A DNA stretch of 36,879 nucleotides from Leptolyngbya sp. (GTDB taxonomy: Bacteria; Cyanobacteriota; Cyanobacteriia; Leptolyngbyales; Leptolyngbyaceae): assembly GCA_003249025.1 (NCBI GenBank), contig QBMH01000024.1, positions 1 to 36,879 on the forward strand, in the 5' to 3' direction. The notes under the pieces are model-generated. The model was not told where the DNA came from. It did no database searches and saw nothing but the letters and a program-made list of their open reading frames with translations. Made by a program: the position numbers and the translations under genes. Position 1 is the first letter of the stretch. Each line of letters opens with the position of its first letter. Positions 16,688 to 36,022 of this stretch are shown here, piece after piece.

Positions 16688-17107
16688 TCATATAGCTGGA
16701 TCGATCAGATGGCTAGGCTGTAAGATCGTCTTGATTTGATCAAGCAAGTTCTCGAAATCAATCGGTTTACGAACAAAACCGTCGGCTCCCGCATCAAACC
16801 CTTCGGCTGGCATCAGGGCGCTGTAGCCAGTCACTAAAAGAATTGGGATAAAGGGTAGATGATGGTTTTTCCGAATCTGTCGGGTTACCTCAAATCCATT
16901 CATTTCTGGCATCATCACATCCAAAAGCACTAATTCGGGTGGATGAGCAGCAATCTTGTCTAAGGCAGACTGACCACTATTAGCCACCTCAACTTGATAT
17001 CCTTCGTTTTCTAAAACTGTTTGTAGCAAAAAGGAGTTATCGGAAAGGTCGTCAACTACTAGAATGCAATCAACTTGTGGTGCTATTTCAGAAGATAAAC
17101 TATTCAT
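16688..17107 (-). CDS. Single-domain response regulator (CheY-like)
   Basis: A 139-residue stand-alone receiver. The acidic pair is in CILVVDDLSD, the phosphoacceptor Asp in LVLLDVMMPEMNG, the Thr/Ser switch in ILLVTGYSA and the Lys in FVRKPID, so all catalytic residues are present. There is no output domain; it should act by protein contact or as a phosphate shuttle. It is one of three such receivers in this minus-strand cluster, each differing in sequence. The start is the ATG at 17107, without a strong ribosome site. Partner kinases are the flanking multidomain proteins by position only. Confidence 0.88.
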   Translation of the reverse strand: MNSLSSEIAPQVDCILVVDDLSDNSFLLQTVLENEGYQVEVANSGQSALDKIAAHPPELVLLDVMMPEMNGFEVTRQIRKNHHLPFIPILLVTGYSALMPAEGFDAGADGFVRKPIDFENLLDQIKTILQPSHLIDPAI

Positions 17108-17240
17108 TACTAGGGCAAAGCTTTTTCTAAAGGCAAAGGATTTTTGATATGTAGCTCTATCTTCTCTATTAATCTCTGCATTTCACTCCTACCATAGAGA
17201 GATCTATCTTAATTTCTCTGAGTAACCCGGCACTGTTTAT

Positions 17241-17639
17241 TTATACAGAGCAAGCAGTTGCTAATTGGGCGGTTTCTTTACGTAATACTTCAGCTAAATG
17301 CTCGTCAATGGGTTGCCACTGCGGATTTGTCGCTTTTCCTGTTTGCCACTCAAAGGAAACCTGACTAAATCCGTTGTATTTTGGTCGGCTGGTGTTGGCG
17401 GGGCAATGTTCGATCCAAATTAAGCGATCGCAGTCTAATTGAAACTTCTGGGCAATATGGCTTGCCAGTTGTTCAATTTTGTAGGGAACAAACCATCCCG
17501 TTTCGCAACCCATATCAGACACCATCACGATGTACTGCCCAAGCGACGAGTGAAAAATTTGCAAATAGCATCGCAATTGCCAAGTGCCAAATTCTTGCCC
17601 TGGAACCGTACATTGATAGGACTGATCAACGATCTTCAT
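17241..17639 (-). CDS. Hypothetical cyanobacterial-type protein in the signalling cluster
   Basis: A 132-residue soluble protein that I cannot place in a named family. The ATG at 17639 has AGGGA about 7 nt upstream. The sequence is mixed alpha/beta, rich in aromatic residues (GTWQLRCYLQIFHSSLGQY, ETGWFVPYKIEQLASHI, RLIWIEHCPANTSR). It has five cysteines spread along the chain, with no CxxC pair. No signal peptide or transmembrane segment is present. It lies between a receiver gene and the zinc-ribbon miniprotein, all in the same orientation with short spacers. It is likely co-expressed, but a role in signalling is only a guess from position. Confidence 0.65.
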   Translation of the reverse strand: MKIVDQSYQCTVPGQEFGTWQLRCYLQIFHSSLGQYIVMVSDMGCETGWFVPYKIEQLASHIAQKFQLDCDRLIWIEHCPANTSRPKYNGFSQVSFEWQTGKATNPQWQPIDEHLAEVLRKETAQLATACSV

Positions 17640-17697
17640 GGTAAATCCCTAAAAATAAACAACAACTTGCTAGATAGTCACCGATGAAATGCTTGAT

Positions 17698-17883
17698 TTA
17701 AGGAATTAGCAAGGCATGTTTTCGAGATAAAAAACTAAGTTCTCGTTCTAACGATGTAGAGGTTAGGCGAGTTCCTTGATCATATAAAGGCATTTCCTGC
17801 CAACAACTCCGGCAGAACCAATACAGTTGATGTTGACGAACGTGGCGCAACATGGAATGAGAGCAGCAGGGGCAAGAGTTCAT
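17698..17883 (-). CDS. Zinc-ribbon miniprotein
   Basis: A 61-residue protein. The ATG at 17883 is supported by GAGGAA 7 nt upstream. The N-terminal half has CPCC (Cys4-Cys7) and, seventeen residues later, WFCRSCW (Cys24-Cys27), a compact four-cysteine zinc ribbon. Around it are aromatic residues (HQLYWFC...CWQEMP). The C-terminal half is polar and predicted helical (STSLERELSFLSRKH). Proteins like this are found in cyanobacteria next to response regulators (recalled, not searched). It is the smallest convincing gene in the cluster. A metal-binding or protein-interaction role is inferred. Confidence 0.7.
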   Translation of the reverse strand: MNSCPCCSHSMLRHVRQHQLYWFCRSCWQEMPLYDQGTRLTSTSLERELSFLSRKHALLIP

Positions 17884-18053
17884 CGTAAATTCCTCGAATG
17901 AGATCGGATGAAGATTGAGAGATGCAAAAGAAATTAAGCAACTCTTTAAATCGCACTGGCCTGAACATATTTGGAAATTGTGGAGAAAGTTTGGAGAACG
18001 ACAAGAGTTTGACTACGTTTCTTTGCGAATAATGTCAAAGTGTTGAGGTTCTC

Positions 18054-18446
18054 TCATGATTGCAAGGCTTGAGCAATTTGCCGGACAAAATCAACGGGAT
18101 CAAATGGCTTGAAAATGGTTAACACCACGCCTAATTTGGGTAAGCGATCGGGGTTAGGCAAATAGCTCATAGCAGTTAATAGCACCACTGGAATGTTTTG
18201 GGTTGTTGGATCGGAGCGTAGGCATTGCAAAACCGCGATCCCATCCATTTCGGGCATCATCACATCTAAAACGATCGCGTCTAATGATTCAGTAGTCGCT
18301 TGCTGCAATGCCTCTTTTCCTGAAGCTGCCGTTAGCACATTCCATTTACCTAAATGCTGCAAGCAGGCTGACACCACTTCTCGAATCACAGCATCATCGT
18401 CTACAACTAAAATTCGCTTGGCAACTACATTAACCACTTCAATCAC
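18054..18446 (-). CDS. Single-domain response regulator (CheY-like)
   Basis: A 130-residue receiver that starts with GTG at 18446. No in-frame ATG precedes the domain. The motifs are complete: RILVVDDDAVIREVV, phosphoacceptor Asp in AIVLDVMMPEMDG, switch Thr in VVLLTAMSY, and Lys in IFKPFDPVDF. It belongs to the same sequence type as the next receiver upstream (KRILVVDDxxxIREVV...KPFDP), suggesting a tandem duplication followed by divergence. There is no DNA-binding or enzymatic output domain. Confidence 0.88.
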   Translation of the reverse strand: MIEVVNVVAKRILVVDDDAVIREVVSACLQHLGKWNVLTAASGKEALQQATTESLDAIVLDVMMPEMDGIAVLQCLRSDPTTQNIPVVLLTAMSYLPNPDRLPKLGVVLTIFKPFDPVDFVRQIAQALQS

Positions 18447-18617
18447 TTCAACTGTTTACTTGGAACAAGCTGATCACAATGGAGCAGCTTTCACTTGCCT
18501 CAGATCTAGGACTGAGAACCTCAAGCGGTAGCTTTAAGGTAAGCAAAAAATATGGAGAAAGTTTGCAGAAATCGCTCTAGATTGTAAAGAAGAGTTAAGT
18601 TGCGTCCGTTTTTGGGA

Positions 18618-18995
18618 TTAGTTCCAGCCTAATAGTTGGCTGATCTCCTGGGAGATCTGGATTGGATCAAAGGGTTTGACAATTAACCCCGCAACCCCTA
18701 GCTGTTTGTACTGGAGTTGCTCATTGGGTTGAACTTTGGCGGTGAGAAAAATCACTGGAATTGAGATCGTTTGTGGGTGGCGCTGAAGATGTTGTAAGGT
18801 TTCAAGACCATTCATTCCGGGCATGGAAACATCGAGCAAGATGGCATCGGGCACTTGGGCGATCGCGGCTTGAATCGCGTCCTCTCCCGAACTAGCCACC
18901 ATCACCTCCCATTGGGCAAGCTTCACTAGGCACATTCGCACGACTTCACGAATCCGTTCTTCATCATCCACAACCAAAATTCGTTTACTGATCAT
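18618..18995 (-). CDS. Single-domain response regulator (CheY-like)
   Basis: A 125-residue receiver. The ATG at 18995 (MISKRILVVDDEERIREVV) is preferred, with AGGTG 9 nt upstream; a GTG at 19007 would add four residues. The phosphoacceptor lies in AILLDVSMPGMNG, the Thr in VIFLTAKVQ and the Lys in IVKPFDPIQI. It lies about 80 nt after the stop of the bilin-type hybrid kinase in the same orientation, so it is the nearest physically linked phosphate acceptor for that kinase. Close similarity to the receiver at 18.05-18.45 kb points to duplication. Confidence 0.9.
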   Translation of the reverse strand: MISKRILVVDDEERIREVVRMCLVKLAQWEVMVASSGEDAIQAAIAQVPDAILLDVSMPGMNGLETLQHLQRHPQTISIPVIFLTAKVQPNEQLQYKQLGVAGLIVKPFDPIQISQEISQLLGWN

Positions 18996-19087
18996 CACCG
19001 TTTGCACCTGATTTTATCCAAGGTAACCAAATCAACAAAGCAAATCAAAACCTACCATGCTTGCAAAAACTACGATAAAAAAGAGAA

Positions 19088-22000
19088 TTATTCGGGTTGC
19101 AAAGGCAAGGTAAAGCAAAACGTGCTGCCTTGCCCCCAGATACTTTCCACCCAAATTTGTCCGCCATGCTGCTGCACAATCGATTTACAAATTGCCAAGC
19201 CCAAACCTGTGCCGCCCTTATCGCGAGAATCGGAAGCATCCACCTGTTGAAACCGACCAAAAATGCTCTCCAGCTTATCTGTGGGAATGCCACGACCATG
19301 ATCGGTAATGGAGAAGAGAATATGAGGGTGGATGGGTGGATGGGTAGAGGGGTGGATGGGTGAATGGGTGGATGCTTCTACATTCTCATGGTTCTCTGCT
19401 CCCCTGTTCCCCCGCTCCTCCGCTTCCACGCCTTGCAATTCAGCCTTGAGCCAAATGGTGCTGTTTGCCGATGAGAATTTGATGGCGTTGCTGACTAGGT
19501 TGGTGAAGGTTTGAATGATGCGATCGGGGGCAACCCAAATCGGTATGGATAAGGGCTGCACGATTAACTGTACGTTTGATTCTTGGGCGCTGCTTTCCAT
19601 GACCGCGATCGCCCTTTGCATCAGGTCTGCGGTATCGCACCATTCTCGCACTAGGGATAGTCTGCCTGTCTCCAATTTTTCCAAATCCAAAATGTCGTTA
19701 ACCAATCGCACGAGTCGTTCCGTGTCGATTGAGGCAATCTCGATCATACGTTTCATGGCGACTGGTTCATTGTCCATCACGCCGGTTGCTAACAAGCCCA
19801 GCGATCCACGAATGGAGGTGAGGGGAGTCCGCAACTCGTGACTCACGATTGAAATAAATTCGTCCTTGAGTTTCTCGACTGCTTGCCGTTGGGTGACATC
19901 TTCGCCAATGCTGGTCACGCCAATAATGTCGCCTTTCGGATTTCGCAGCAGTGTAATGCTCCAGTTGATAGTTTTTTGTTCCCCTGATTTGATTAAAATT
20001 TTATGTTGAGCAGAGGGATAAAATTCCTGCTTGAGATTTTCTTGAAAAAGTTGTTGCTGCTGTTGTACTTGATCAGCGGGAATCAATAAATCAAACCAGT
20101 TTTGACCCAGCACTTCGCTTGCGGTGTAGCCTGTCAATTTAAGGAAAAATGGATTGGCGGCGTTAATCGCACCGTTAGTATCTAAGCTAATGACTGCCAG
20201 ATTGGTGCTTTCAAACAGCGATCGCCAGCGGCGTTCGGCTTCTCGTAAACCTGCTTCGGTTTGCTTGCGCTCTTGCAGTTCAATTTGCAGTTGGCTATAG
20301 AGTTCGGATTGCTGAATAGCGATCGCCAGTTGGCTAGCAATCTGCTGAGACAAATCGATTTCCCAAGTTTGCCACTGACGCGGGGCAGCATTTTGATAAA
20401 TCGCCAATAAACCCCATAGCCTATCCCCAGAAAAAACAGGGGCGATCGTGTAGGATCTCGCCTGAAATTGTTCTAATAGGTCAATATGGCACGGGCGCAA
20501 CCCAGCCGTGTAAATATCTGAAATCACAAAAGTTTCGTGATTTTGGAATCGTCCTCCTTGCGTTTCTTGCAAATAGGTGTCTTCCCACACTTTTTGAATA
20601 TTAGGTTCCACGAGGGGTATCCACTCTGCCCCAACTGACTCGGCAATAAAAGTTCCATTCCAATCTGGAGTAAATTGATAGACTGCTACTCGATCAGCTT
20701 GTAATAGCTGCCTCACCTCAGTCACAGCCGTGTTAAGAATCACATTAAGCTCCAGCGGTTGGCGAATGGCTTGGGTAACGCGCCAAAGTAACTGTTCTTG
20801 TCTCGCTTGCTGCTGTAGGGCGGCTTCTGCCCGTTTGCGATCGCTGATGTTGTTGTTGATCTCCAGCACTTTTATCGGTCTGCCTAACTCATCTTTTTGC
20901 AACGCCCAACGACTATCTACGGTGATCATTGAGCCATCTCGACAAGTTTGAACCAGTTCACCTTCCCAATAGTCTTTTTCTAGCAATTCGGCTTTAATGT
21001 CGATTAAAGCATGGGGAAACTGAGTTTGCAGTAGCCCATGAGTTTTTTTGCCTAACGCTTCTGCCTTTGTCCACCCATACATAAACTCGGCACCCTCATT
21101 CCAAAATGTGATGATGTCGTTGAGGTCGTGGGTAATGATGGTGTCGTGCGCCAAATCTAGTAGTTGTGCCTGTTCTTGCAGAATGAGTTGAGTTTGTTGT
21201 TGGGTAATCAATGTTTCCAGCAGGCGATCGTTCACATGGGTTAGTTCAGCCGTGCGCTCTGCCACTCGCTGCTCTAGCTCTATATTTAACTCTTGCAGTG
21301 CCAGTTCTGCCTGTTTACGAGACGCAAGCTCAGTTTGGGCTTGTTCAAATAGGGCAGATTGTTGAATGGCAATACCTGATTGGGTCGCTAGTTGCCGCAA
21401 CAGATCAATCTCGGATGGCTGCCACGATCGCGGAGCAACACAATGATGAGCAACGAGCAATCCCCATAGGGTGTTTGCCTGCAAAATAGGAACGACTAAA
21501 TTTGCCCTCACTTCAAACCTTGACAATAGTTCCAGATGGCAGGGGCTAATGTCGGCAGTGGCATAAACATCGGATTTTGCGGTAACAAGCCCCTGTTTAA
21601 AAGGTTCTATGTAGTTTTCCCCAATGCAGGGGTCGTAGATTCGGGTCGCAAGAATGGCTCTTTCAGGGGTTCCGACTGACTCCACTACAACCGTGCCGCT
21701 CCAGTTAGGATCAAACTGAAAAATAAGCACGCGATCGGTGTGAAGATAGTGCCGCACTTCATCCACTGTCGTTTGGAGAATATCTTGTAAATTGAGCGAT
21801 CGCCGGATGCGTTGAGTAATTTCCATCACAAGGCGCTGTTGCTCAACTTGTTGACCCAGTGCTTCTAGCGTGAGATGGGTTTGACTTCGCAAATTCGCCA
21901 CTTGACGGAGCAATTTTCCTTGCTGGATCACGCTATGGAGCGCTAGCCCCACCACTTCAGCCGTTAAAGTTTCCTTGTTTAAATAGGACTGTGCATCCTG

Positions 22001-22306
22001 AGTTGTCTGCGCTGGCTGTACTTCATCCGCTGTTAAAACAACCACAGGGACAATCGAGGCTTCATGCTGTTGTAAGGACTGCAAAAACTGCAATCCGGTC
22101 ATATCTGGTAGGCAATAATCCAGCAAAATTGCATCCGGTTGGGCTGTCCGAAACTGGTCTAGCCCAGCGGCTCCTGTTTCTGCTTCTAGCACCGTGTAAA
22201 GGACGCGATCGCCTTCCAGCAAGTCTTGTTGTAACCAATGACTGAGCAATTCTCGATCTGCTGAGCAATTTTGCACAATTAGAATAGTGTGGGTTACTTG
22301 AGTCAT
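19088..22306 (-). CDS. Candidate cyanobacteriochrome hybrid histidine kinase (REC-GAF-PAS-GAF-PAS-HisKA-HATPase)
   Basis: A 1072-residue cytosolic kinase. The N-terminal receiver (7-125) keeps Asp63 and Lys111 but has Gln12-Asn13 where the acidic pair should be. GAF1 (about 160-320) has both hallmarks of DXCF-type cyanobacteriochromes: Asp-Pro-Cys at 225-227 (RIYDPCIGENY) and Cys256-His257 (SPCHLELL...VRANLVVPI). GAF2 (about 505-670) has Cys606-His607 (RPCHIDLLEQFQA) and a QETQGGR insertion but no first cysteine. PAS domains lie at about 380-490 and 690-805. HisKA has His823 (VSHELRTPLT). The ATPase domain (N box LVSNAIKF, GTGLGLAIC) is interrupted at about 958-994 by a His/Pro-rich stretch encoded by octamer repeats. 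Its ATG overlaps the preceding regulator's stop by 4 nt (ATGA), indicating translational coupling. Bilin binding is inferred from motifs. Confidence 0.88.
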   Translation of the reverse strand: MTQVTHTILIVQNCSADRELLSHWLQQDLLEGDRVLYTVLEAETGAAGLDQFRTAQPDAILLDYCLPDMTGLQFLQSLQQHEASIVPVVVLTADEVQPAQTTQDAQSYLNKETLTAEVVGLALHSVIQQGKLLRQVANLRSQTHLTLEALGQQVEQQRLVMEITQRIRRSLNLQDILQTTVDEVRHYLHTDRVLIFQFDPNWSGTVVVESVGTPERAILATRIYDPCIGENYIEPFKQGLVTAKSDVYATADISPCHLELLSRFEVRANLVVPILQANTLWGLLVAHHCVAPRSWQPSEIDLLRQLATQSGIAIQQSALFEQAQTELASRKQAELALQELNIELEQRVAERTAELTHVNDRLLETLITQQQTQLILQEQAQLLDLAHDTIITHDLNDIITFWNEGAEFMYGWTKAEALGKKTHGLLQTQFPHALIDIKAELLEKDYWEGELVQTCRDGSMITVDSRWALQKDELGRPIKVLEINNNISDRKRAEAALQQQARQEQLLWRVTQAIRQPLELNVILNTAVTEVRQLLQADRVAVYQFTPDWNGTFIAESVGAEWIPLVEPNIQKVWEDTYLQETQGGRFQNHETFVISDIYTAGLRPCHIDLLEQFQARSYTIAPVFSGDRLWGLLAIYQNAAPRQWQTWEIDLSQQIASQLAIAIQQSELYSQLQIELQERKQTEAGLREAERRWRSLFESTNLAVISLDTNGAINAANPFFLKLTGYTASEVLGQNWFDLLIPADQVQQQQQLFQENLKQEFYPSAQHKILIKSGEQKTINWSITLLRNPKGDIIGVTSIGEDVTQRQAVEKLKDEFISIVSHELRTPLTSIRGSLGLLATGVMDNEPVAMKRMIEIASIDTERLVRLVNDILDLEKLETGRLSLVREWCDTADLMQRAIAVMESSAQESNVQLIVQPLSIPIWVAPDRIIQTFTNLVSNAIKFSSANSTIWLKAELQGVEAEERGNRGAENHENVEASTHSPIHPSTHPPIHPHILFSITDHGRGIPTDKLESIFGRFQQVDASDSRDKGGTGLGLAICKSIVQQHGGQIWVESIWGQGSTFCFTLPLQPE
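19325..19374 (-). repeat. In-frame GGATGGGT octamer repeats inside the kinase gene
   Basis: Five to six tandem copies of an octamer close to GGATGGGT (plus strand) lie within the kinase ATPase domain. On the coding strand they read as His/Pro/Ser/Thr (THSPIHPSTHPPIHPH). The adjacent 19375-19435 is also low-complexity. The array resembles the repeats at 1-33 and 5899-5975 in composition and unit length. The reading frame is kept open. Confidence 0.8.
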
Positions 22307-24237
22307 GCCATCTCCTCTACGTCATGCGTCTGATCGATGAAAGCGGCGGTAAATTGCTGACGATGCTTTTGTGCGGGTTGTAAACGATTAAGGACACGAG
22401 CAATCAACTCTGGTTCTAAAATCGGTTTGCGGATATAGTCATCGCCTCCGGCTGCAAACGCTTGCACAATCGTTTTTTCATCTTGGTACGCAGTCAGAAA
22501 AAGAATGGGCAGGTCACCCCAGTGTGGGTCATTTCGCACCACTTGGCAGAGTTCAATTCCACTCAATCCTGGCATTTCTACGTCTAGAATAATTAGATCG
22601 GGTACGACATCAGTTAGGGTCTCCCAAAATCGCTGGGTTTCCAGCAGGGGAGTGACCTGTAATCCCCAGGGCGAGAGCATTAAAGGCACTCGATGTAAAA
22701 TCACTGGGTCATCATCGACAATCAGCACTTTCCCCGCGATCGCGGATTGAGATCGCAAACCTTGAGCTTTGGTTTGCTGCAAAGTCGTTTGGATTGCCTG
22801 AAAAATTTGGGCGGAAGCAATCGGTTTTTGCAGAAATGCTTGGATTCCCAAGCGGGCGGCGGCTACGCGATCGGACAGGTAATCTCGGGCTGTAAACACC
22901 AGCACCGGAAGCTGAGGATGCTGCTGTTTGAGAGCTTCCAACCAGGTTAAACCATCTTCACTACTTTTCGCAAAGGTGAGGTCGAGTAAAATCACATCGG
23001 GTATAGTGGATTCTACAATTCGTTGTGCTTGCGTCAAGTTGGCAGCCGCTTCTAACTGGAGCGATCGCGCAGTCGCCTCTGCCTTTAAGCGATCGGTCAA
23101 TATCTGATCATCATCGACTACCAACACGAAAGGAAAGGGCATTGTGGGATCGGTTGGTTGGGCGATCGCGTCTTGAGTAGTCTGTGTCAACTCTGGTTTT
23201 CGCTGAAGTTCCTGTTTTAGCGCCGTTACCAGTTGGGCGATTTGGCTAATTTCTGGCGATTGCAATTGAATCTCAGGTGATCGTAACAAGTCTTCGATCT
23301 GTCTTGCGATCGTAGATCCGTGGGGAAATCCATAAACACCCAACGACCCCACCAACTTGTGAGCAGTTTGTTTTGCGGTGTGTTTTGCGGTGTGTTGCAA
23401 GTCATCTGTTAAAGAACCATTTTCTAAGGCAGCAACCCATTGATCTAGCCCATCAATTTGTTCCTCAAAAGAATCTTTGAACCGCTCCCATAGCTCTAGC
23501 ATGAGCACTGTAGCCGTTTCAGTGGCAACTTTGGGTGCCGCTTCTAGGGGTGTGGATGTCAGGGTTTTAAGCGATCGCAAGCGATAGCCAAAGCCATAGA
23601 TTGTTTCAATCAGATCTTGACTGGCTCCGGCTGCCTTCAACTTTTGTCGAATCGCTTTAACGTGGCTGCTGATTGCGCTTTCAGTCGGTGATTCATCCAA
23701 TTCCCACAGGCGATCGATCAGGGCTGCGCGACTAAAGATCCGCTGAGGATTTAATAGCAGCAGTTCTAAAATGCCGTACTCTTTCGGCGTTAAGCGGAGT
23801 ACTTGCTGCCCATGGCGAATTTCGCTGATTGCAGAGTCAATTTGAAACTCTCCTTGGGTAACGGTAGAAGGAACGGTTGTTCTACCCCGTCGCAGCAAGG
23901 CTCGAATCCGCGCCAGCAGTTCTGATGTATTAAACGGCTTGATCATGTAGTCATCTGCACCCGCATCTAAACCCATGACGCGATCGGTTGCTCTATCTTT
24001 TGCCGTTAACAGCAAAATCGGCACCTGACATCCCCTAGCACGCAGCCGTTTACAAACGCTAATCCCATCAACTTCAGGAATATCAACATCCAACAGCACC
24101 AAGTCATAGTCAAACTGCTCTACTAAATCTATCGTAGACTGCCCATCTGCCGCCGTTTCAACAACATGATAGACACTTAGTGAACTTTCAAGCATGGCGC
24201 GGGTTGCTTGATCATCCTCCACTAATAAAATTTTCAC
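22303..24237 (-). CDS. Response regulator REC-wHTH-Hpt-REC-REC
   Basis: A 644-residue regulator starting with GTG at 24237. REC1 (1-115) has Asp50 and Lys100, then an OmpR/PhoB-type winged helix (about 125-222, with LRLTPKEYGILELLL and IETIYGFGYRL). An Hpt domain (about 245-345) has phosphotransfer His293 (QTAHKLVGSLGVYG). REC2 (about 370-486) has Asp419 and REC3 (about 503-618) has Asp552 and Lys604. All receivers keep their acidic residues. One polypeptide thus carries DNA binding plus Asp and His relay sites. A 12-bp perfect tandem duplication (23371-23394) repeats His-Thr-Ala-Lys just before the Hpt histidine. It is first in the operon, coupled to the hybrid kinase, and diverges from the phycobiliprotein-like gene, a plausible target. 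Confidence 0.92.
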   Translation of the reverse strand: MKILLVEDDQATRAMLESSLSVYHVVETAADGQSTIDLVEQFDYDLVLLDVDIPEVDGISVCKRLRARGCQVPILLLTAKDRATDRVMGLDAGADDYMIKPFNTSELLARIRALLRRGRTTVPSTVTQGEFQIDSAISEIRHGQQVLRLTPKEYGILELLLLNPQRIFSRAALIDRLWELDESPTESAISSHVKAIRQKLKAAGASQDLIETIYGFGYRLRSLKTLTSTPLEAAPKVATETATVLMLELWERFKDSFEEQIDGLDQWVAALENGSLTDDLQHTAKHTAKQTAHKLVGSLGVYGFPHGSTIARQIEDLLRSPEIQLQSPEISQIAQLVTALKQELQRKPELTQTTQDAIAQPTDPTMPFPFVLVVDDDQILTDRLKAEATARSLQLEAAANLTQAQRIVESTIPDVILLDLTFAKSSEDGLTWLEALKQQHPQLPVLVFTARDYLSDRVAAARLGIQAFLQKPIASAQIFQAIQTTLQQTKAQGLRSQSAIAGKVLIVDDDPVILHRVPLMLSPWGLQVTPLLETQRFWETLTDVVPDLIILDVEMPGLSGIELCQVVRNDPHWGDLPILFLTAYQDEKTIVQAFAAGGDDYIRKPILEPELIARVLNRLQPAQKHRQQFTAAFIDQTHDVEEMA

Positions 24238-24365
24238 GGTTCTACAGAAAATAAATAGAAATATATTGGTTTAGGCAAGCAATTATTGCACTGAATCGAG
24301 GCGAGTGTTAAGAAAGACTACATTATTTCTTCAAATTTATGCATTTCGTCCTTTAAAGTTTTCTT
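24238..24365. promoter_or_regulatory. Divergent promoter region between regulator and phycobiliprotein-like gene
   Basis: Only 128 AT-rich bases separate the two divergent starts, so both promoters must lie here or within the genes. I could not identify a definite -10/-35 pair or the direct repeats expected for an OmpR-type regulator. The arrangement itself suggests autoregulation and control of the neighbour (inference). Confidence 0.45.
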
Positions 24366-24884
24366 ATGGGCAATCTCAAAAGTAAGGTTCTTAATTTTAC
24401 TCACTGCCCTATGCATGCTCTTAACTACAAACTTGACAAATCTATTTTAGAGGCGGATGGTCGGTACTTGGACTCTCAAGAGCTTTACCCATTAGAGTCC
24501 TACATTCAAAGTTATGAAATTCGACTCAACACCTATAAGCACCTACAGGATCATGGCGAAAAGCTAGTAATTTTGGCTTTAAGGAAGCTTGCCCAACTGT
24601 ATCCAGAGTTGATTCAGCAGCATGGATCGCGTTGTAAATACGATATGACAGAAGTTTTGCGCTATATTGCGCTGTCAATTTTGCGAGATGACGAACTTTT
24701 GTTCAAAGAAAAAATGCTGGCATGGCTAGATACAATTCTGCTGGCACACAAACGCAATGACCACTGTAGGCATGCATATCAAAACTTACAAGAGGCGATC
24801 GCTGCTAATTTTGTAGCCGCAGAAACGAGGCTAATTCGTCCCTACTTAGAATTAACCCTGCATGCCCTCGAATCTCACGCCTAG
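24366..24884 (+). CDS. Orphan phycobiliprotein-like subunit
   Basis: A 172-residue all-helical protein resembling the phycobilisome globin-like family (PF00502 type). DGRYLDSQELYPLESYIQSY matches the start of the globin core in phycobiliprotein subunits. SRCKYDMTEVLRYIALSIL places Cys90 where allophycocyanin and phycocyanin subunits attach bilin in their C-x-R-D segment, with CKYD here. An acidic DDE follows, in the position of the usual GD. Later helices (RHAYQNLQEAIAANF, RPYLELTLHAL) fit the fold. It is clearly diverged from ApcA/ApcB/CpcA/CpcB and stands alone apart from the linker-type gene 98 nt downstream. It diverges from the REC-wHTH-Hpt-REC-REC gene. Bilin attachment and its role (antenna, sensor or scaffold) are unknown. 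There is no strong ribosome site before the ATG. Confidence 0.72.
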   Translation: MGNLKSKVLNFTHCPMHALNYKLDKSILEADGRYLDSQELYPLESYIQSYEIRLNTYKHLQDHGEKLVILALRKLAQLYPELIQQHGSRCKYDMTEVLRYIALSILRDDELLFKEKMLAWLDTILLAHKRNDHCRHAYQNLQEAIAANFVAAETRLIRPYLELTLHALESHA

Positions 24885-24982
24885 AGATCTGCACCCTATA
24901 GACATCGCTAGTTGATTTCCTTCTCTTCATCATCCCCTGTGTGTTTCCTCAAGTTTTCATTCAACAGTCGAGGATATTTATT

Positions 24983-25696
24983 ATGACTCTCACCCAACCC
25001 ATCACCGTAAATCGCTACTCTTCTTTAGAGGATCGTGAGCTTGCCCTACGCCAAATCTATCAACAGATCTTAGAACGACAGCCCTATGCTTGCGAACGCA
25101 CTCCGCTAGCCACTCTTGAAAAAGAGTTTTTAACGAACAAGATTGGGGTTAAACGATTTGTGAAAGAGTTTGGGCAGTCAGAGCTTTATCTCAATACTTT
25201 TTACTACACTACTTCTAATTTGAAGTTTCTAGAGTTATGCTTCAAGCATTTTCTAGGACGTGCGCCTCAACATCATGCAGAGATCAGAGTTCACATTGAT
25301 AGGTTAATCCATAAAGGAGTAAAGCAATTAATTCTAGACCTTGTGGATTCAGAGGAGTATCTTAAAGCATTTGGTTGTTTTACGGTTCCCTATCCGCGTC
25401 AGCTAAATTTTTATTTATCACCCAACGTTTATCTAGAATCCAACTTACTGAATGAAGAACAGATTGGTCGGCGCGGGCGATCGCTCCCGACGCTCTACTG
25501 GCGGCAGCTAGGACTTCACTGTGACTCAGGCGTTTGCCACTATCCTAAACCCCATGAAGGAGAATCCTCGACATTGACTCAAGAGGATTTAGCTCAGATG
25601 CTTAAGCTAATGCAATACGCACCCGCAGAACAGGTTTTTACAACTCTGTCTCCACAACAAAAAGCAGTGTTGCGGCAAGCGATTTCAGACCGATAA
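24983..25696 (+). CDS. Phycobilisome linker-domain protein
   Basis: A 237-residue protein with one phycobilisome linker (PF00427-like) domain at about residues 15-155. It has the run RQIYQQILERQPY, then KEFLTNKIGVKRFVKEFGQS, LELCFKHFLGRAP and LVDSEEYLKAFG..TVPYPR, which parallels CpcG and ApcE linker repeats. The C-terminal 80 residues are unique, with two cysteines (LHCDSGVCHYP) and a helical end (SPQQKAVLRQAI). The ATG at 24983 follows GAGGA by 9 nt; a GTG at 24941 is less likely. It is co-directional with the phycobiliprotein-like gene and probably co-transcribed. It ends 8 nt before the convergent cyanophycinase gene. It may bind the upstream subunit, giving a minimal linker-subunit pair (inference). 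Confidence 0.78.
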   Translation: MTLTQPITVNRYSSLEDRELALRQIYQQILERQPYACERTPLATLEKEFLTNKIGVKRFVKEFGQSELYLNTFYYTTSNLKFLELCFKHFLGRAPQHHAEIRVHIDRLIHKGVKQLILDLVDSEEYLKAFGCFTVPYPRQLNFYLSPNVYLESNLLNEEQIGRRGRSLPTLYWRQLGLHCDSGVCHYPKPHEGESSTLTQEDLAQMLKLMQYAPAEQVFTTLSPQQKAVLRQAISDR

Positions 25697-25704
25697 ATCC
25701 CCTT

Positions 25705-26592
25705 CTAGCTACGTTTATTTCTTTCGATAGGGATTCTTTTTTCTAAGTCAAATCCGTATCCGTGGGGAAGAATATGCAGAGTTGCATTACATAGGGCAAG
25801 CGGTTCATCCTTTAGAAGCTCCTCAACATTGGTATGAGTGAGATTTGCGACATCAACAACCGTGATTGCCCCTTCACCAATGACTTCTAGCTCTTTGCCA
25901 TTGATGGCGATCGCAGTATTTTCATCAATACCAAACCCCAGATTAACGGGTTGTTGAGCGATCGCGGATAGCAACCGTCCGAGTCGCCCCCGTTGAGCAA
26001 AATGTTGATCAATCACTACACCCGGTAAAAACCCCATGCCGTGATCCATCTCGGCAACATCCATACGCGGATTAGTTTCCGATTCTCCTTCAACAATCAT
26101 CATGTCAGGCATCATCGCGGCTCCAGCGCTCGTGCCCGCAATAATAATACCTTCAGAAAATCGTCGATGTAATAGACTATGCAGTTCGGTATCTTTCAAA
26201 CATTCAGTAATCCGGGCCTGATTGCCACCTGTGAAGAACACCCCCGTCGCATCCTGAATCGCCTCTAAACCCTTGGGGTCGTCCGCATTCTCACGTTTTG
26301 CAGTATCTACAACCTTGACAGATTCAACTCCCAATCGTTCAAACACATTCATGTAGGTCTCACCAACCTCGCCAGGAAGCCCCGTTGCCACTGTCATAAC
26401 CACAATCCGAGCCTGTAACCCACCTGCACGACGCACAAACTCGCGCAAGATTTTGCAGTCACCCTCTTTATCTTCGGCACCTCCAATGATCACCAATTGC
26501 CCATGAGTCTCAGGAAGTGCCACGCTGTCTTGAACTTCTGACTCGTTGTTTTGGGATGCCGTACCTACCTCTTGAACCTCTTGTAGTGTCAT
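25705..26592 (-). CDS. cphB: Cyanophycinase
   Basis: A 295-residue serine-type exopeptidase of the peptidase S51 family that cleaves cyanophycin (multi-L-arginyl-poly-L-aspartate) to beta-aspartyl-arginine dipeptides. The catalytic nucleophile elbow is GTSAGAA (Ser155), with GGAEDKEGDCKILREFV near the N-terminus and FFTGGNQARI in the middle, all typical of CphB. The length exceeds Synechocystis CphB by an N-terminal Gln/Glu-rich tail of about 25 residues. The ATG at 26592 is supported by GGAG 6 nt upstream; a TTG at 26604 was set aside. It is on the same strand as the 70-residue gene upstream, with a strong hairpin between them. It diverges from the cphA2-like gene. Confidence 0.95.
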   Translation of the reverse strand: MTLQEVQEVGTASQNNESEVQDSVALPETHGQLVIIGGAEDKEGDCKILREFVRRAGGLQARIVVMTVATGLPGEVGETYMNVFERLGVESVKVVDTAKRENADDPKGLEAIQDATGVFFTGGNQARITECLKDTELHSLLHRRFSEGIIIAGTSAGAAMMPDMMIVEGESETNPRMDVAEMDHGMGFLPGVVIDQHFAQRGRLGRLLSAIAQQPVNLGFGIDENTAIAINGKELEVIGEGAITVVDVANLTHTNVEELLKDEPLALCNATLHILPHGYGFDLEKRIPIERNKRS

Positions 26593-26618
26593 AATAATCT
26601 CCAAATCTGATTGTGATG

Positions 26619-26649
26619 GTTTCCTAATAAAGCATTTTTATTAGGAAAC
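26619..26649. terminator. 13-bp perfect hairpin before cphB
   Basis: GTTTCCTAATAAA (26619-26631) and its exact complement (26637-26649) enclose a 5-nt loop. It lies 27 nt upstream of the cphB ATG and 33 nt after the stop of the preceding small gene. There is no U-run, so it could be a partial terminator, an mRNA processing or stability element, or an attenuator adjusting cphB expression relative to the small gene. Confidence 0.55.
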
Positions 26650-26682
26650 TTAGTACAGTCGTTTGGTAGATTCCAAAAAGGA

Positions 26683-26895
26683 TCAGTTGATCTGTTCAAG
26701 TAAATCGGTCAGAAAAGAACGCGCCTCCACTAGAGGCATATGCCTTGGCTTGCCCTCATGCACAATTTGATATTCATCATCATATTCGCTGTCTCCATGC
26801 CCAGAGATTAGGTGACTGTGAAAAGCAGCTTCAGCTAGTTTGTGAACTTCTTCTCTCAAATCAAGCGTAGTTTCCTTTATGTCGTGCTTGTTCAT
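26683..26895 (-). CDS. Small acidic protein between cyanophycin genes
   Basis: A 70-residue soluble protein I do not recognise. The ATG at 26895 (MNKHDIKETTLDLREEV) is chosen because AGGAGG lies about 9 nt upstream; an ATG at 26931 would place that site inside the gene. It is acidic, with a predicted N-terminal helix (LREEVHKLAEAAFHSHL), a polar middle rich in Asp, Glu and Tyr (GDSEYDDEYQIVHEGKPRHM) and a C-terminal helix (EARSFLTDLLEQIN). There are no cysteines and no membrane segment. It precedes cphB on the same strand and diverges from the cphA2-like gene, so a link to cyanophycin turnover is plausible but unproven. Confidence 0.6.
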   Translation of the reverse strand: MNKHDIKETTLDLREEVHKLAEAAFHSHLISGHGDSEYDDEYQIVHEGKPRHMPLVEARSFLTDLLEQIN

Positions 26896-27090
26896 AAGGT
26901 CATACCCTCCTAACAAGGAAATGCTCAGCATAACAACTAGACTTTACAATTTCCCCCTTCAAAAGAATCATTTCTTTGGATAGAGGTAGAGCTAGTCTAA
27001 TTGATCCAGTCAACAATTCATACCCTACGATAGAGAAAAATACAGCCGTGCAAAGCTAACATAAACTGTGAATAAATATGGCGTTGAGTT

Positions 27091-29001
27091 ATGGTTTTGG
27101 ATCAAAGTATTGAAATGGATCGCGTGAACGCACGAACGACTGATGCGTTCGATATCTTCAATATTCGGCACTACATCGGCTCAAATCCATTCTTGAAAAC
27201 AGCGGCAGTAGTTTTCGATTTTGCTGTGGTTGCAAATAATTCACCGCTTCCTTTAGAGGTATATCAAGCTACGGTGAGCGATCGCTATCCTCACTTGGCG
27301 GATGAATCTTATGACTCCTACGCGCATTTGTTTGCGCGAACTGTTGCTGAGGTTAATCAGCTTGAGATGGATTTACATTTAACGCACTGGAGCGTGCAGC
27401 CCTACGATGAGCGAACTAGAATAGCGATACAGTCATTGCATCGCCGCACCAGTCGAGCGATCGTCTATTGCGTGTGGGATTGGTTTGAAGCCATCACACG
27501 CAATCAACAATTTCGGATCGAAGAGCAGATTGAACTGCTCCAAAGCATTTTTCGAGATTCGGTCTATGGCGGTCCCACAGTCTATGCATTGCTTAAAACC
27601 GCTTACGAATTAAGCATTCCTACCTTTTACTTGTGGGATGAAGGACTAATGCAGTATGGCTATGGGCGCAAGCAAGTAAGAGGGATTGCGACCACCTTTA
27701 ACCATGACAGTCATATTGATTCAGACTTTACAACTGGAAAGGATGATTGCAAGAAATTTCTTCACACACTGGGTTTCCCCGTTCCCACAGGCAGCATTGT
27801 TTACACTCTAAGTGAAGCATTAGCCGTTGTAAAACAGATTGGTTATCCCGTTGCAGTCAAGCCTGTTGTTGGACATAAAGGCATCGGGGTAACGGCAGAT
27901 GTGAAAGACTTTAATGGTTTAGAACGCGCTTTTGATAACGCGATCGCCGCCGTACCTGACGATCAACCGATTCGCATCATTGTCGAAAAAAGTATTGCTG
28001 GCAAAGATTTCCGCTTGTTGTGCGTCAATGGAAAGTTCGTGGCAGCAACGGAACGGTGTCCTGCATTTGTGATAGGCGATGGTGTGTCAACAATTAGCGA
28101 GCTGATTGAGCGAGAAAATCGGACTGCTGCTCGAATAGATACCCCAACGTCGCCGCTTGGCAAAATAAAATATGATGCAGCGATGGAACGCTACCTAAAA
28201 GATCAGGAATTATCGTTAAATAGCGTGATAGAAAAGAATCATAAAGTGTTATTGCGAAAGGTTGCTAATCTTTCTGCTGGTGGTTTAAGCATTGATGCCA
28301 CTCGGCAAATTCATCCTGACAACGTGATTCTGGCACAAGATATTGCTCAATACTTTCGCCTTACTTGCCTGGGCATTGATGTAATGGCTCGTGACCTTTC
28401 AGAATCATGGCGAGAAGGGAACTTTGGCATTATTGAAATCAACGCGGCTCCCGGTATCAACATGCATCTAAAGCCTGCGGTAGGCGAAAGTGTAGATGTT
28501 CCTGCTTATATCTTGCAGAGCTTTTTTGAAACTGGAAAGGATGCCCGGATTCCAACTATTAGCTTTAATTGTGTTTCTTCGACTGAAATCCAAGAAATTG
28601 TTGATCACATTCTACTTAAGCATCCTCATTGGATCATTGGGAGTGTTTGTCGAGCAGGCACATTCATAAATCGGTCTGAAAAACACTTGAACCCGGATTA
28701 CAACATCAACGTTCAAAATCTACTCCGCAATCCCAGGCTTGATCTGTTAATTACTGAATATTGCGAAGAAATACTCGATCGCGAAGGGATGTTTTATTAC
28801 GGTAGTAATGTCGTCATTTTGGATAATCCCACCGAAACTGAGATGATGCTGTCTCGTGATGTTTTTGACGATTCAATAGTCGTCGTTCGACAGGGAGACT
28901 CTGTTTCAATTCATCAAAATGGATTGATTGAGCAATATTCTCTAGGTAAAGATGAACCATTTAGCCGAGTTTACCTGAAGGAAATTACAACGATTTTGTA
29001 A
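27091..29001 (+). CDS. cphA2: CphA2-like cyanophycin synthetase with degenerate Mur-ligase region
   Basis: A 636-residue relative of cyanophycin synthetase. The N-terminal domain (about 1-210) is followed by an ATP-grasp domain (about 211-480) with TTGKDDCKKFLHTLGFPVP, YPVAVKPVVGHKGIGV, IIVEKSIAGKDFRLL and IIEINAAPGINMH, the nucleotide and metal-binding text of the CphA family. Standard CphA has about 870-900 residues and a full C-terminal Mur-ligase half with a GTNGKTTT P-loop. Here only about 150 residues remain, reading IPTISFNCVSSTEIQEIVDH at the equivalent place, so the P-loop is lost. CphA2 enzymes with this reduced layout polymerise beta-Asp-Arg dipeptides using ATP (established for the family). 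Cyanophycinase next door would provide that dipeptide. The ATG at 27091 has only a weak ribosome site. Confidence 0.82.
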   Translation: MVLDQSIEMDRVNARTTDAFDIFNIRHYIGSNPFLKTAAVVFDFAVVANNSPLPLEVYQATVSDRYPHLADESYDSYAHLFARTVAEVNQLEMDLHLTHWSVQPYDERTRIAIQSLHRRTSRAIVYCVWDWFEAITRNQQFRIEEQIELLQSIFRDSVYGGPTVYALLKTAYELSIPTFYLWDEGLMQYGYGRKQVRGIATTFNHDSHIDSDFTTGKDDCKKFLHTLGFPVPTGSIVYTLSEALAVVKQIGYPVAVKPVVGHKGIGVTADVKDFNGLERAFDNAIAAVPDDQPIRIIVEKSIAGKDFRLLCVNGKFVAATERCPAFVIGDGVSTISELIERENRTAARIDTPTSPLGKIKYDAAMERYLKDQELSLNSVIEKNHKVLLRKVANLSAGGLSIDATRQIHPDNVILAQDIAQYFRLTCLGIDVMARDLSESWREGNFGIIEINAAPGINMHLKPAVGESVDVPAYILQSFFETGKDARIPTISFNCVSSTEIQEIVDHILLKHPHWIIGSVCRAGTFINRSEKHLNPDYNINVQNLLRNPRLDLLITEYCEEILDREGMFYYGSNVVILDNPTETEMMLSRDVFDDSIVVVRQGDSVSIHQNGLIEQYSLGKDEPFSRVYLKEITTIL

Positions 29002-33070: not shown

Positions 33071-36022
33071 CTACAACAAAATTTCAATAGTGCCCTGCTG
33101 CCCATCCATGCGAATCAGTTGCCCATCCTGAAATTGTTGAGTGGCATTGTGTACATCCATCACAGCGGGAATCTGATATTCTCGCGCCACGATCGCCCCA
33201 TGAGAAAGTTGCCCTCCAACCTCAGCGATTACCCCCCCGGCTCGTGCTAATAAGGGTGCCCATCCAGAATCGGTATAAGGAACCACAAGAATCGTATCTT
33301 TTCCGATATTGGGAAGTGCTGCTAACGTCGTGACGATTTTTACCCGCCCTTCTACGATTCCAGCACTAGCACCAATTCCTTGAAAATGTTGAACAGTTGG
33401 TCTTTTGCTTAGCGTTGGCATAGGAGGCGCATTCCCGTAAACCAAAAAAGGAATGGATGGCAGGGCGCGATCGCGTTCTAATTGCGATCGCCGCTGATCA
33501 ATCACATCCTGCATACTCGTTTTGAACGCACTCTTTTTCTGTTCAATCAGTTGCCGCACCTCTTGAACTTCTAAATAAAAAATGTCGCCTAATTGCAATA
33601 ATTGCCCACTCTTGAGGCAGTGCTGCTCTAATGCCACGAAACTCCAACGGAGTTCAGCTAGCAACCGACTATAAATTTCAGTCACTCTGCCTTTAATATT
33701 CACCCGACGCTGAACCATGCGCGCAACTCCCCGAAGCGGAGCAGGTGCAGGCGGAGGAGCGATCGGAGCAAGACAAAATTGAGCAAACAATTCGCGCACC
33801 GGGGTTGGATTTTCCTTCCAGGTAGGTACTGCAATGTCGGTGCCCACTTCACTTAGATAACCATATTGCTCTAGCAACTGGTTAAATCTCATAAAAATTA
33901 TTTTTCCTTCGGGTGTTGTATTCAGTGTTTCAAACAATTCAATCGATGAAAGAGAGACAGTCTCGACCAATAATTCAGGCAAAGTTGATCGGGCGGATTC
34001 AGCCAATGCTTGCAACGATCTCAGTGCCGCAATTTCTGGAGTACCACCGTTGTCTAAAGTGGCATCATTGACTTTGAATAATGCCTTGCGTAAGGCTGCA
34101 CTTAGCGGAGCCAAGATACTGTAGTATGTCGCTGGTTGCAGCAGATTTAATATAAAGTCAATTCGGTTTAACAACTCAAGCTCAGTTAAGTTTGCAGCAG
34201 GTTGCCGAGCGAATTCAGTGAACGCAGGAGTTAGTTGTAGGCGATCGCATCGGGCAAAGTCCTTCACTAAGCTCACTTCACGCCCTAGCAATCGCATCAG
34301 CCCAATCGAATTTCGGAGCGTTGAAACTAAGGGCGGCTTGCTAAATTTTGCACCTTTTGTCAAAAACTCTAAACTTTCCGGCGGCAGCCCCATTTGCCGA
34401 AAAGTTTGCCCTAATAGAGACGCATTGAAATAAGCCTGAGAATAATGCAGCGTTGCCGTTTTGTCAAAATTCAATCCAATCGCGCGCTTTCCCAAAACCA
34501 GGGTGAACAGATCACCCCAAACTCCACAGGTCAACGGACGATTAATCGACCAGGTAAGTGGACAAATCAGCCCTGGAATCACTTCTGCGGCTATCTTGCG
34601 AGTCCAAATCGGCAATAATGTTGTAATTGGGCGAGTTTGTAGCAGCCAGAGAGTTTGCCCGTCATAGCTCCACTCCATATCTTGAGGAATGCCTTGGTAG
34701 TGAGTTTCTAACTGTCTCGCCCAGTAAGCAACCTGCTGAATAATTCGAGGGGGCACCTCTCCAATTCCATCGACTTCTAAAGTCAAATCATCTGGCATAA
34801 GCCAGGGTTGGGCAGAGTTGGGCGATCGCGAGAACAACGCATCGTCCACAAAAACGCGATAGGTTTCTGGCGTTAACCTGCCAGAAACCACCTGACTCGC
34901 ACTTCCAGGTAATGCCTCAACTACCACCATTTCCCCACTTTGAGAAATGGGATCGCGGCTGAATGCAACTCCCGAAAAGACCCCGCGAATCTGCTGCTGA
35001 ACCAGAACCGCCATTGAACTTTCCAATACTCCTAAATCTCGCCGATATTGAGTGGCAACAGATCGGTTATAAGACTCAAAACAGCGATTAATCGCGGGTT
35101 GCAACCCTTCACGTCTTGTAATGTTAGCAATACTCTCATATTGTCCAGCCGCAGATGCTCCCTCAGAATCCTCTCCGATCGCAGACGATCGCACAATCAA
35201 AGGACACTGAGTCGATAGATTTAAGCTCTCAATTAACGGTTGCGGATCGTCTCCCGCTGCCAACACCCAACCCGTGGGCACTGGATAGCCCAATTTTTTA
35301 AGATGGGCAAGCGTTGATGCTTTTTGTCCATATTGCTGGACATCCAAAAAATCATCCAAAGAGCGAATCGCTCGGCGTTGAAATGAATCCTTCAATGAAT
35401 CTCCTTGGAAAAACTTAAACGCACCACGAGAGCTAGCCTGAACAGACTGGGAATTTAGACTCAAATCATCAGGAATTTTAGTATAAATCCAGCTAAGTAA
35501 TAACGCTAATGCCGCCGTTGCAATAATCAAATCTGTTTGCTCTGGATGTAGTAAAACGGTGACTAGAATCAGCAGTCCTAAAACGCCAAACTGAGCTTGT
35601 TTGCGATCGCGCAAAACCGTAAATCCGACTGCACCCGTTAAGCAAACAAAACCTGCAACAACTGGATCATGAGCAAAATATCCCCACACTACATTGGTTA
35701 TTCCCGCTCCTCCACCTACCCAATAGCGACCCATCACAAGCGAAATTAACGCGATAACTTCCCATACTTCATCCGTAGGAAAAAAGAATCTTGCTAGCAA
35801 AACAGCAGCAATTCCCTTCAAAGCTTCCGAACAAACTGCCAATATCCCAGCAAAACGTCCACCGTGGTAAAAAGCCGCAGACACGCTGATATTGCCAGTA
35901 CCAAGTGTTCTTAAATCTTTTGCAAAAAATAAATTAGTAATCCCATGAATCAGTGGAAGCCCACCCAATAAAGGGCAAACAACAAAGATTACTAACGCCC
36001 CCCAAACCTGCATTAGCGTCAT
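33071..36022 (-). CDS. PlsY-like membrane domain fused to PEP-synthase/PPDK-like enzyme
   Basis: A 983-residue fusion. Residues 1-185 hold about five membrane helices and the PlsY-like segment GTGNISVSAAF...ALKG (41-70). The canonical GH...GGKG acyltransferase motif is replaced by MGRYWVGGGAG, so acyltransferase activity is doubtful. Residues about 225-470 form a PPDK/PEP-synthase ATP-binding domain (VRSSAIGEDSEGASAAGQ, 277-294, and DMEWSYDGQTLWLLQTRPI). A helical middle region follows, then the swivelling phosphohistidine domain with GGQLSHGAIVARE (His941) at the C-terminus. The PEP/pyruvate TIM barrel is absent, so the layout recalls rifampin phosphotransferase, with the middle region perhaps binding the substrate. 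It is the last gene after bactofilin on the same strand. The substrate is unknown; a membrane-located phosphotransfer is inferred. This fusion type is recalled from other cyanobacteria. Confidence 0.85.
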   Translation of the reverse strand: MTLMQVWGALVIFVVCPLLGGLPLIHGITNLFFAKDLRTLGTGNISVSAAFYHGGRFAGILAVCSEALKGIAAVLLARFFFPTDEVWEVIALISLVMGRYWVGGGAGITNVVWGYFAHDPVVAGFVCLTGAVGFTVLRDRKQAQFGVLGLLILVTVLLHPEQTDLIIATAALALLLSWIYTKIPDDLSLNSQSVQASSRGAFKFFQGDSLKDSFQRRAIRSLDDFLDVQQYGQKASTLAHLKKLGYPVPTGWVLAAGDDPQPLIESLNLSTQCPLIVRSSAIGEDSEGASAAGQYESIANITRREGLQPAINRCFESYNRSVATQYRRDLGVLESSMAVLVQQQIRGVFSGVAFSRDPISQSGEMVVVEALPGSASQVVSGRLTPETYRVFVDDALFSRSPNSAQPWLMPDDLTLEVDGIGEVPPRIIQQVAYWARQLETHYQGIPQDMEWSYDGQTLWLLQTRPITTLLPIWTRKIAAEVIPGLICPLTWSINRPLTCGVWGDLFTLVLGKRAIGLNFDKTATLHYSQAYFNASLLGQTFRQMGLPPESLEFLTKGAKFSKPPLVSTLRNSIGLMRLLGREVSLVKDFARCDRLQLTPAFTEFARQPAANLTELELLNRIDFILNLLQPATYYSILAPLSAALRKALFKVNDATLDNGGTPEIAALRSLQALAESARSTLPELLVETVSLSSIELFETLNTTPEGKIIFMRFNQLLEQYGYLSEVGTDIAVPTWKENPTPVRELFAQFCLAPIAPPPAPAPLRGVARMVQRRVNIKGRVTEIYSRLLAELRWSFVALEQHCLKSGQLLQLGDIFYLEVQEVRQLIEQKKSAFKTSMQDVIDQRRSQLERDRALPSIPFLVYGNAPPMPTLSKRPTVQHFQGIGASAGIVEGRVKIVTTLAALPNIGKDTILVVPYTDSGWAPLLARAGGVIAEVGGQLSHGAIVAREYQIPAVMDVHNATQQFQDGQLIRMDGQQGTIEILL

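Follow-up and report, generated by a model that had tools for sequence, protein, structure and literature searches.

A conserved cyanobacterial gene pair of a BBAG-like globin and a phycobilisome linker-domain protein

Genes and features of the locus

The window, the whole stretch of 36,879 nucleotides of Leptolyngbya sp. DNA that was analysed, was found to contain two open reading frames on the + strand (24366-24884 and 24941-25696). The first-pass annotation had read them as a diverged phycobiliprotein-like gene (here PBP) and a linker-domain gene (here LNK), and profile searches agreed, with 65.1 bits for PF00502 in PBP (cut-off 22.2) and 126.2 bits for PF00427 in LNK (curated cut-off 28.7). 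Both starts were moved by alignment with orthologues (Table 1). PBP very probably starts at the ATG at 24411 (MHALNYK...) and not at 24366, because nearly all orthologues begin there and the ATG at 24366 lies inside a conserved upstream element; LNK probably starts at the ATG at 24983 and not at the GTG at 24941. The distance of 128 bp to the divergent regulator given earlier is correct from the frame at 24366 and becomes 173 bp from the probable true start of PBP.

Table 1. Features of the PBP-LNK locus (window coordinates)
Feature	Position	Strand	Evidence or remarks
REC-GAF-PAS-GAF-PAS-HisKA kinase, two CBCR-like GAFs	19088..22306	-	neighbour, outside the unit
REC-wHTH-Hpt-REC-REC response regulator	22303..24237	-	neighbour, outside the unit
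Conserved element upstream of PBP, TTAAGAA...GGGCAATCT	24308..24376	+	GGG extended -10-like
PBP, predicted BBAG-type bilin-binding globin (PF00502), 157 aa	24411..24884	+	PF00502 match, AF2 model, orthologue starts
Cys75 codon, position of bilin-attachment Cys84	24633..24635	+	invariant, 52/52 family members
Asp78 codon, Asp87 of phycobiliproteins	24642..24644	+	invariant, 52/52
LNK, phycobilisome linker-domain protein, 237 aa, partner of PBP	24983..25696	+	PF00427; own clade; co-occurrence
PF00427 linker domain of LNK, nearest ApcE repeats and CpcN	25028..25399	+	
Family-specific C-terminal module of LNK	25385..25555	+	invariant S, E, RG, PT; C..G.C motif (C180, G183, C185); no hydrophobic anchor helix

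No further phycobilisome genes were found among the window ORFs scanned, in line with the earlier remark that no ordinary ones are adjacent. The standard set was found on other contigs of the genome (5.46 Mb, 407 contigs) and contained ApcA, ApcB, ApcD, ApcF, ApcE, two CpcBA, two CpcC-type domains and one CpcG-type linker, the names being assigned by reading the sequences. The same genome contained two more diverged PF00502 proteins, labelled L010 and L012.

The window also contained a CheB-CheR-PAS-kinase-REC fusion protein of 1410 aa (11855-16087) and a cluster of cyanophycinase, an 82-aa ORF and a shortened cyanophycin-synthetase-like protein of 636 aa (25705-29001), which also lies near the pair, at a distance of about 6 kb, in locus L055. 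An odd fusion protein of 983 aa (33071-36022) joins a glycerol-3-phosphate acyltransferase-like domain to PEP-synthase-like ATP-binding and mobile domains.

The globin and linker families

In 390 cyanobacterial genomes searched, PBP orthologues were found at 42-71% identity in many families, followed by a more distant set at 35-41%. The Cys first noted at the bilin-attachment position of PBP was found to align with Cys84 of phycobiliproteins with an Asp at +3, and both residues were conserved in 52 of 52 aligned family members. The same position was occupied by Trp in 21 of 22 L010-type paralogues, and the L012-type paralogues did not contain a conserved Cys there. The CXRD-type bilin motif was mostly CXYD in the PBP family, X-R being mostly K/Q-Y, and the GGNxY...RR loop of phycobiliproteins was absent, with a shorter loop before the Cys; the pocket of PBP therefore differs. 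The GRYL and LRY motifs were conserved.

The AlphaFold (AF2) model of PBP (pLDDT 87) was found to contain the phycobiliprotein fold, with a TM score of about 0.72-0.75 to phycobiliproteins, and the best PDB sequence match was ApcF. In a maximum-likelihood tree the PBP family was monophyletic (98/96), and a 100/99 branch separated it, together with the L010- and L012-types (sequences from many genomes), from Apc/Cpc. The tree was built without BBAG-1/-3 of other bacteria, and 'BBAG-like' is used here as the cautious label. Where the first pass had pointed to ApcA-F, CpcA/B and FaRLiP paralogues, the tree placed PBP with the BBAG-type globins, and identity as an allophycocyanin paralogue was ruled out by the supported clade outside the light-harvesting phycobiliproteins. 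PBP thus shares with ApcB/ApcF and other phycobiliproteins the PF00502 fold and the equivalents of Cys84 and Asp87, whereas the loop, the separate clade and the lack of an alpha/beta partner set it apart. As judged from its sequence, PBP is a BBAG-like globin of PF00502 type outside the light-harvesting clade, and not a cluster BBAG.

The cyanobacterial BBAGs are slr0149-like globins (Rockwell et al. 2023, PMC10151467), and a link with the assembly of photosystems, rather than with phycobilisomes, has been made for the cluster relatives slr0144-slr0149 (PMC10151467). In BBAGs of other bacteria, bilin binding needs no lyase and fluorescence is weak, their functions not being known (Rockwell et al. 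2023, PMC10151467); a fluorescence yield of 3-7% was reported for the characterised BBAGs (PMC10151467). In the genome of the window, the L010 and L012 loci were found to be split remnants of the slr0144-slr0152 cluster, L010 adjoining an Fe-S protein gene and L012 lying between V4R-like proteins (neighbours identified by eye). An apparently intact slr0144-slr0152-like cluster with V4R and Fe-S kinds was found in genome G020 (L167:4654-11149), and it contained a Cys-bearing globin (CIQD) placed with weak support as the sister of the PBP clade. Neighbours of the V4R and Fe-S kinds, as seen here for L010, L012 and the G020 globin, are features by which Rockwell et al. characterise cyanobacterial BBAGs such as slr0149 (PMC10151467). 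PBP resembles these globins in fold and in its side of the tree relative to the light-harvesting phycobiliproteins, the Asp is retained in the L010-type, and the G020 homologue carries a Cys inside such a cluster. In contrast, no V4R/Fe-S cluster was found around PBP in the loci examined, where its neighbours were the phycobilisome linker and unrelated genes, and its Cys is invariant whereas the sampled cluster paralogues are mostly without one.

LNK was found to contain a single PF00427 domain nearest to the ApcE repeats and CpcN. The LNK family formed a separate clade (99/99); long branches leave its exact sister group uncertain. The 'novel 80-residue C-terminal part' of the first-pass annotation proved to be a conserved module of about 58 residues after the domain, with invariant Ser, Glu, Arg-Gly, Pro-Thr and the C..G.C motif, followed by a variable tail. 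No C-terminal hydrophobic helix was found, the maximum 19-residue hydropathy being below 1.0 in 35 of 35 sequences, and CpcL identity was excluded by the lack of the CpcL-type helix. LNK thus shares one PF00427 domain with the ApcE repeats, CpcG and CpcL, and differs from them in its clade, its family-specific module and the missing helix. The AlphaFold model of LNK (pLDDT 54, 8 rows) was too poor for use. In family f23 (L088, L095 and similar loci) the linker had often undergone tandem duplication, giving a protein of about 440 aa in which the C-terminal module occurs twice, and locus L092 carried two PBP copies.

The C-terminal module alone was detected in 104 of the 390 genomes. With PBP presence called at E <= 1e-24, a threshold chosen by the analyst, both genes were found in 101 genomes, LNK only in 3, PBP only in 19 and neither in 267 (p = 2e-69, the independence being inflated by shared ancestry). 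The two genes were <= 3 kb apart in 69 of the 99 genomes with coordinates for both, and the fully read loci had LNK after PBP in the same orientation, so the two-gene unit first proposed was borne out. The gene orders surrounding the pair vary widely among loci, which argues for a functional link despite the shared ancestry of the genomes. Neighbours elsewhere (hydrolase, acyltransferase, methionyl-tRNA synthetase, NYN-like and LptC-like genes, by eye) gave no functional hint. The identities of PBP and LNK were correlated (r = 0.82), phylogeny not being removed, so that shared ancestry alone could give the same value. PBP without a detectable LNK was found in at least two nearly complete genomes, G020 and G135. 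No description of the pair was found in the literature searched on orphan phycobiliproteins or linkers, and PBP and LNK apparently form a widely conserved pair that has not been described.

The upstream element and the neighbouring phosphorelay

The region 5′ of PBP was found to contain a composite element: TTAAGAA-N4-T.CA, in many cases a second copy 22 bp further on that reads TTGAGAA, and then GGGCAGTCTGA. With <=3 mismatches allowed, 22 of 42 upstream regions contained the element and none of the shuffled sets did, a partly circular count as the motif was derived from these sequences. As independent checks, the TTAAGAA ... GGGCAGTCT element was also found before LNK genes lying apart from PBP in several families, and TTRAGAA-N29-58-GGGCARTCT was found once in the 5.46 Mb genome of the window, at PBP. 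The strict pattern gave 9 matches in 42 family genomes, 4 of them before PBP; the reversed control gave 5-6, and the strict pattern by itself therefore lacks specificity. A larger regulon carrying the element was not found, few matches lying beyond PBP. The J-Box of SigJ promoters is GGGaAtacT with a GGG extended -10 (PMC6495340); GGG, A and T are kept in GGGCAGTCT and the other positions differ, so that GGGCAGTCT may be read as resembling this extended -10 (PMC6495340). The pair is predicted to have its own promoter, with tandem activator sites and a GGG-type extended -10.

The divergent regulator was confirmed as REC-wHTH-Hpt-REC-REC by profile search, and its gene was found to overlap the kinase gene by 4 bp (22303-22306). 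The kinase contained two CBCR-like GAF domains with Cys-His, as the cyanobacteriochrome-like GAFs noted earlier would have it. GAF2 was nearest to PDB entries which we take to be of AnPixJ/NpR6012 type, the red/green CBCR type, and the kind of these GAF domains makes a light-responsive relay plausible. The regulator, the kinase, two REC proteins and a small ORF (16688-24237) form a conserved block, an uncharacterised relay with a red/green-type GAF, which recurs in three further genomes (L168-L170). G015, G270 and G276 were found to hold the regulator's nearest relatives, at 60-68% identity; in them the regulator-kinase-REC-REC order is kept and PBP and LNK lie on other contigs.

The first-pass annotation had joined the pair and the phosphorelay into a dedicated photosensory or regulatory antenna module, one that would fail if the pair never sat near the regulator and kinase in other genomes. 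Among about 45 independent PBP loci, the regulator was found beside the pair in the window only, an outcome close to that, and the module was rejected by synteny. In L090 the pair has two REC proteins nearby, but neither was recognisably of the wHTH-Hpt kind, and several Leptolyngbyaceae loci had GAF kinases 3-5 kb upstream that proved to be different ones. As the adjacency is confined to the window among the PBP loci read and the block is conserved without the pair, the nearness is a feature of the lineage and not evidence for a module. Judged from gene order, the regulators are most likely accidental neighbours and not part of the unit; in this one strain the relay may regulate the pair.

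A possible role at the phycobilisome

The explanation that we favour, with middling confidence, is that PBP is an accessory bilin-binding globin, of BBAG type and not a standard antenna subunit, which is docked to phycobilisomes by a dedicated linker. PBP would carry a bilin, most likely phycocyanobilin, on Cys75; LNK, similar to the ApcE repeats of the phycobilisome core, would contact PBP and dock it, probably at the core, as a minor component. At a guess, the pair would tune, quench or help to assemble the phycobilisome instead of adding absorption. This reading is favoured by the invariant Cys and Asp against the Trp and the missing Cys of the paralogues, by the phycobiliprotein fold in a clade outside the light-harvesting proteins, and by a linker domain closest to the ApcE repeats without a hydrophobic anchor. 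Co-occurrence, adjacency, correlated divergence and the element shared with solitary LNK genes argue for it as well, as do the lyase-free bilin binding and weak fluorescence of BBAGs of other bacteria (PMC10151467). Against it stand the CXYD motif and the missing loop, the tie of the cluster relatives to photosystem assembly, and PBP without LNK in G020 and G135.

A rather unlikely alternative is that PBP is a photosystem or thylakoid assembly factor and has retained what is proposed as the role of the slr0144-slr0152 cluster, with LNK as a scaffold and a bilin that is regulatory or absent. The cluster remnants that hold the closest globins of the same genome and the G020 globin point that way; PBP, however, lay outside the cluster in all loci examined, tied instead to a phycobilisome linker, and kept the Cys that the cluster globins mostly lost. 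A minor true light-harvesting subunit, with PBP rings around LNK passing energy on like allophycocyanin, would suit the fold, the GRYL and LRY motifs and the linker partner, but appears unlikely given an operon without an alpha/beta partner, the position outside the antenna clade and the 3-7% yield of characterised BBAGs (PMC10151467).

As first suggested, the neighbouring CBCR kinase and RcaC-like regulator would have the pair as their output or antenna, a reading that we regard as very improbable. In its favour, the genes are divergent and separated by 128-173 bp, the kinase carries a GAF2 of the red/green type, the regulator is of the RcaC kind, and the gap contains TTGCAC, a 6-bp match to what we take to be half of the RcaC L-box. 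Upstream of PBP, however, only this one half-site was found and no direct repeat of the L-box; the relay block is conserved elsewhere without the pair, and the upstream element occurs in genomes where nothing closer to the regulator than a match of about 44-49% identity was found. The kinase and regulator resemble components of the RcaE-RcaF-RcaC and CcaS-CcaR systems of chromatic acclimation, but the adjacency is not conserved and the paired genes are not phycoerythrin, phycocyanin or CpcL. The FaRLiP and LoLiP antenna clusters likewise contain extra phycobiliprotein-like genes beside a photoreceptor-like kinase, whereas no rfpABC, apc/psa/psb paralogues or isiX were recognised in the window.

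An extension of the docked globin, in which the linker-anchored non-antenna globin serves as a regulated energy sink or quencher, is a long shot; if true, it would be a photoprotection route built of a bilin protein and not of a carotenoid protein. Roughly one in four of the cyanobacterial genomes sampled contains the pair, for which the literature searched gave no description. It connects the phycobilisome scaffold with the BBAG-type globins, which have no known function and are presumed relatives of the ancestors of phycobiliproteins. The question of what cyanobacterial bilin globins do thereby becomes directly testable, since two small genes are involved and the read-out is a visible pigment.
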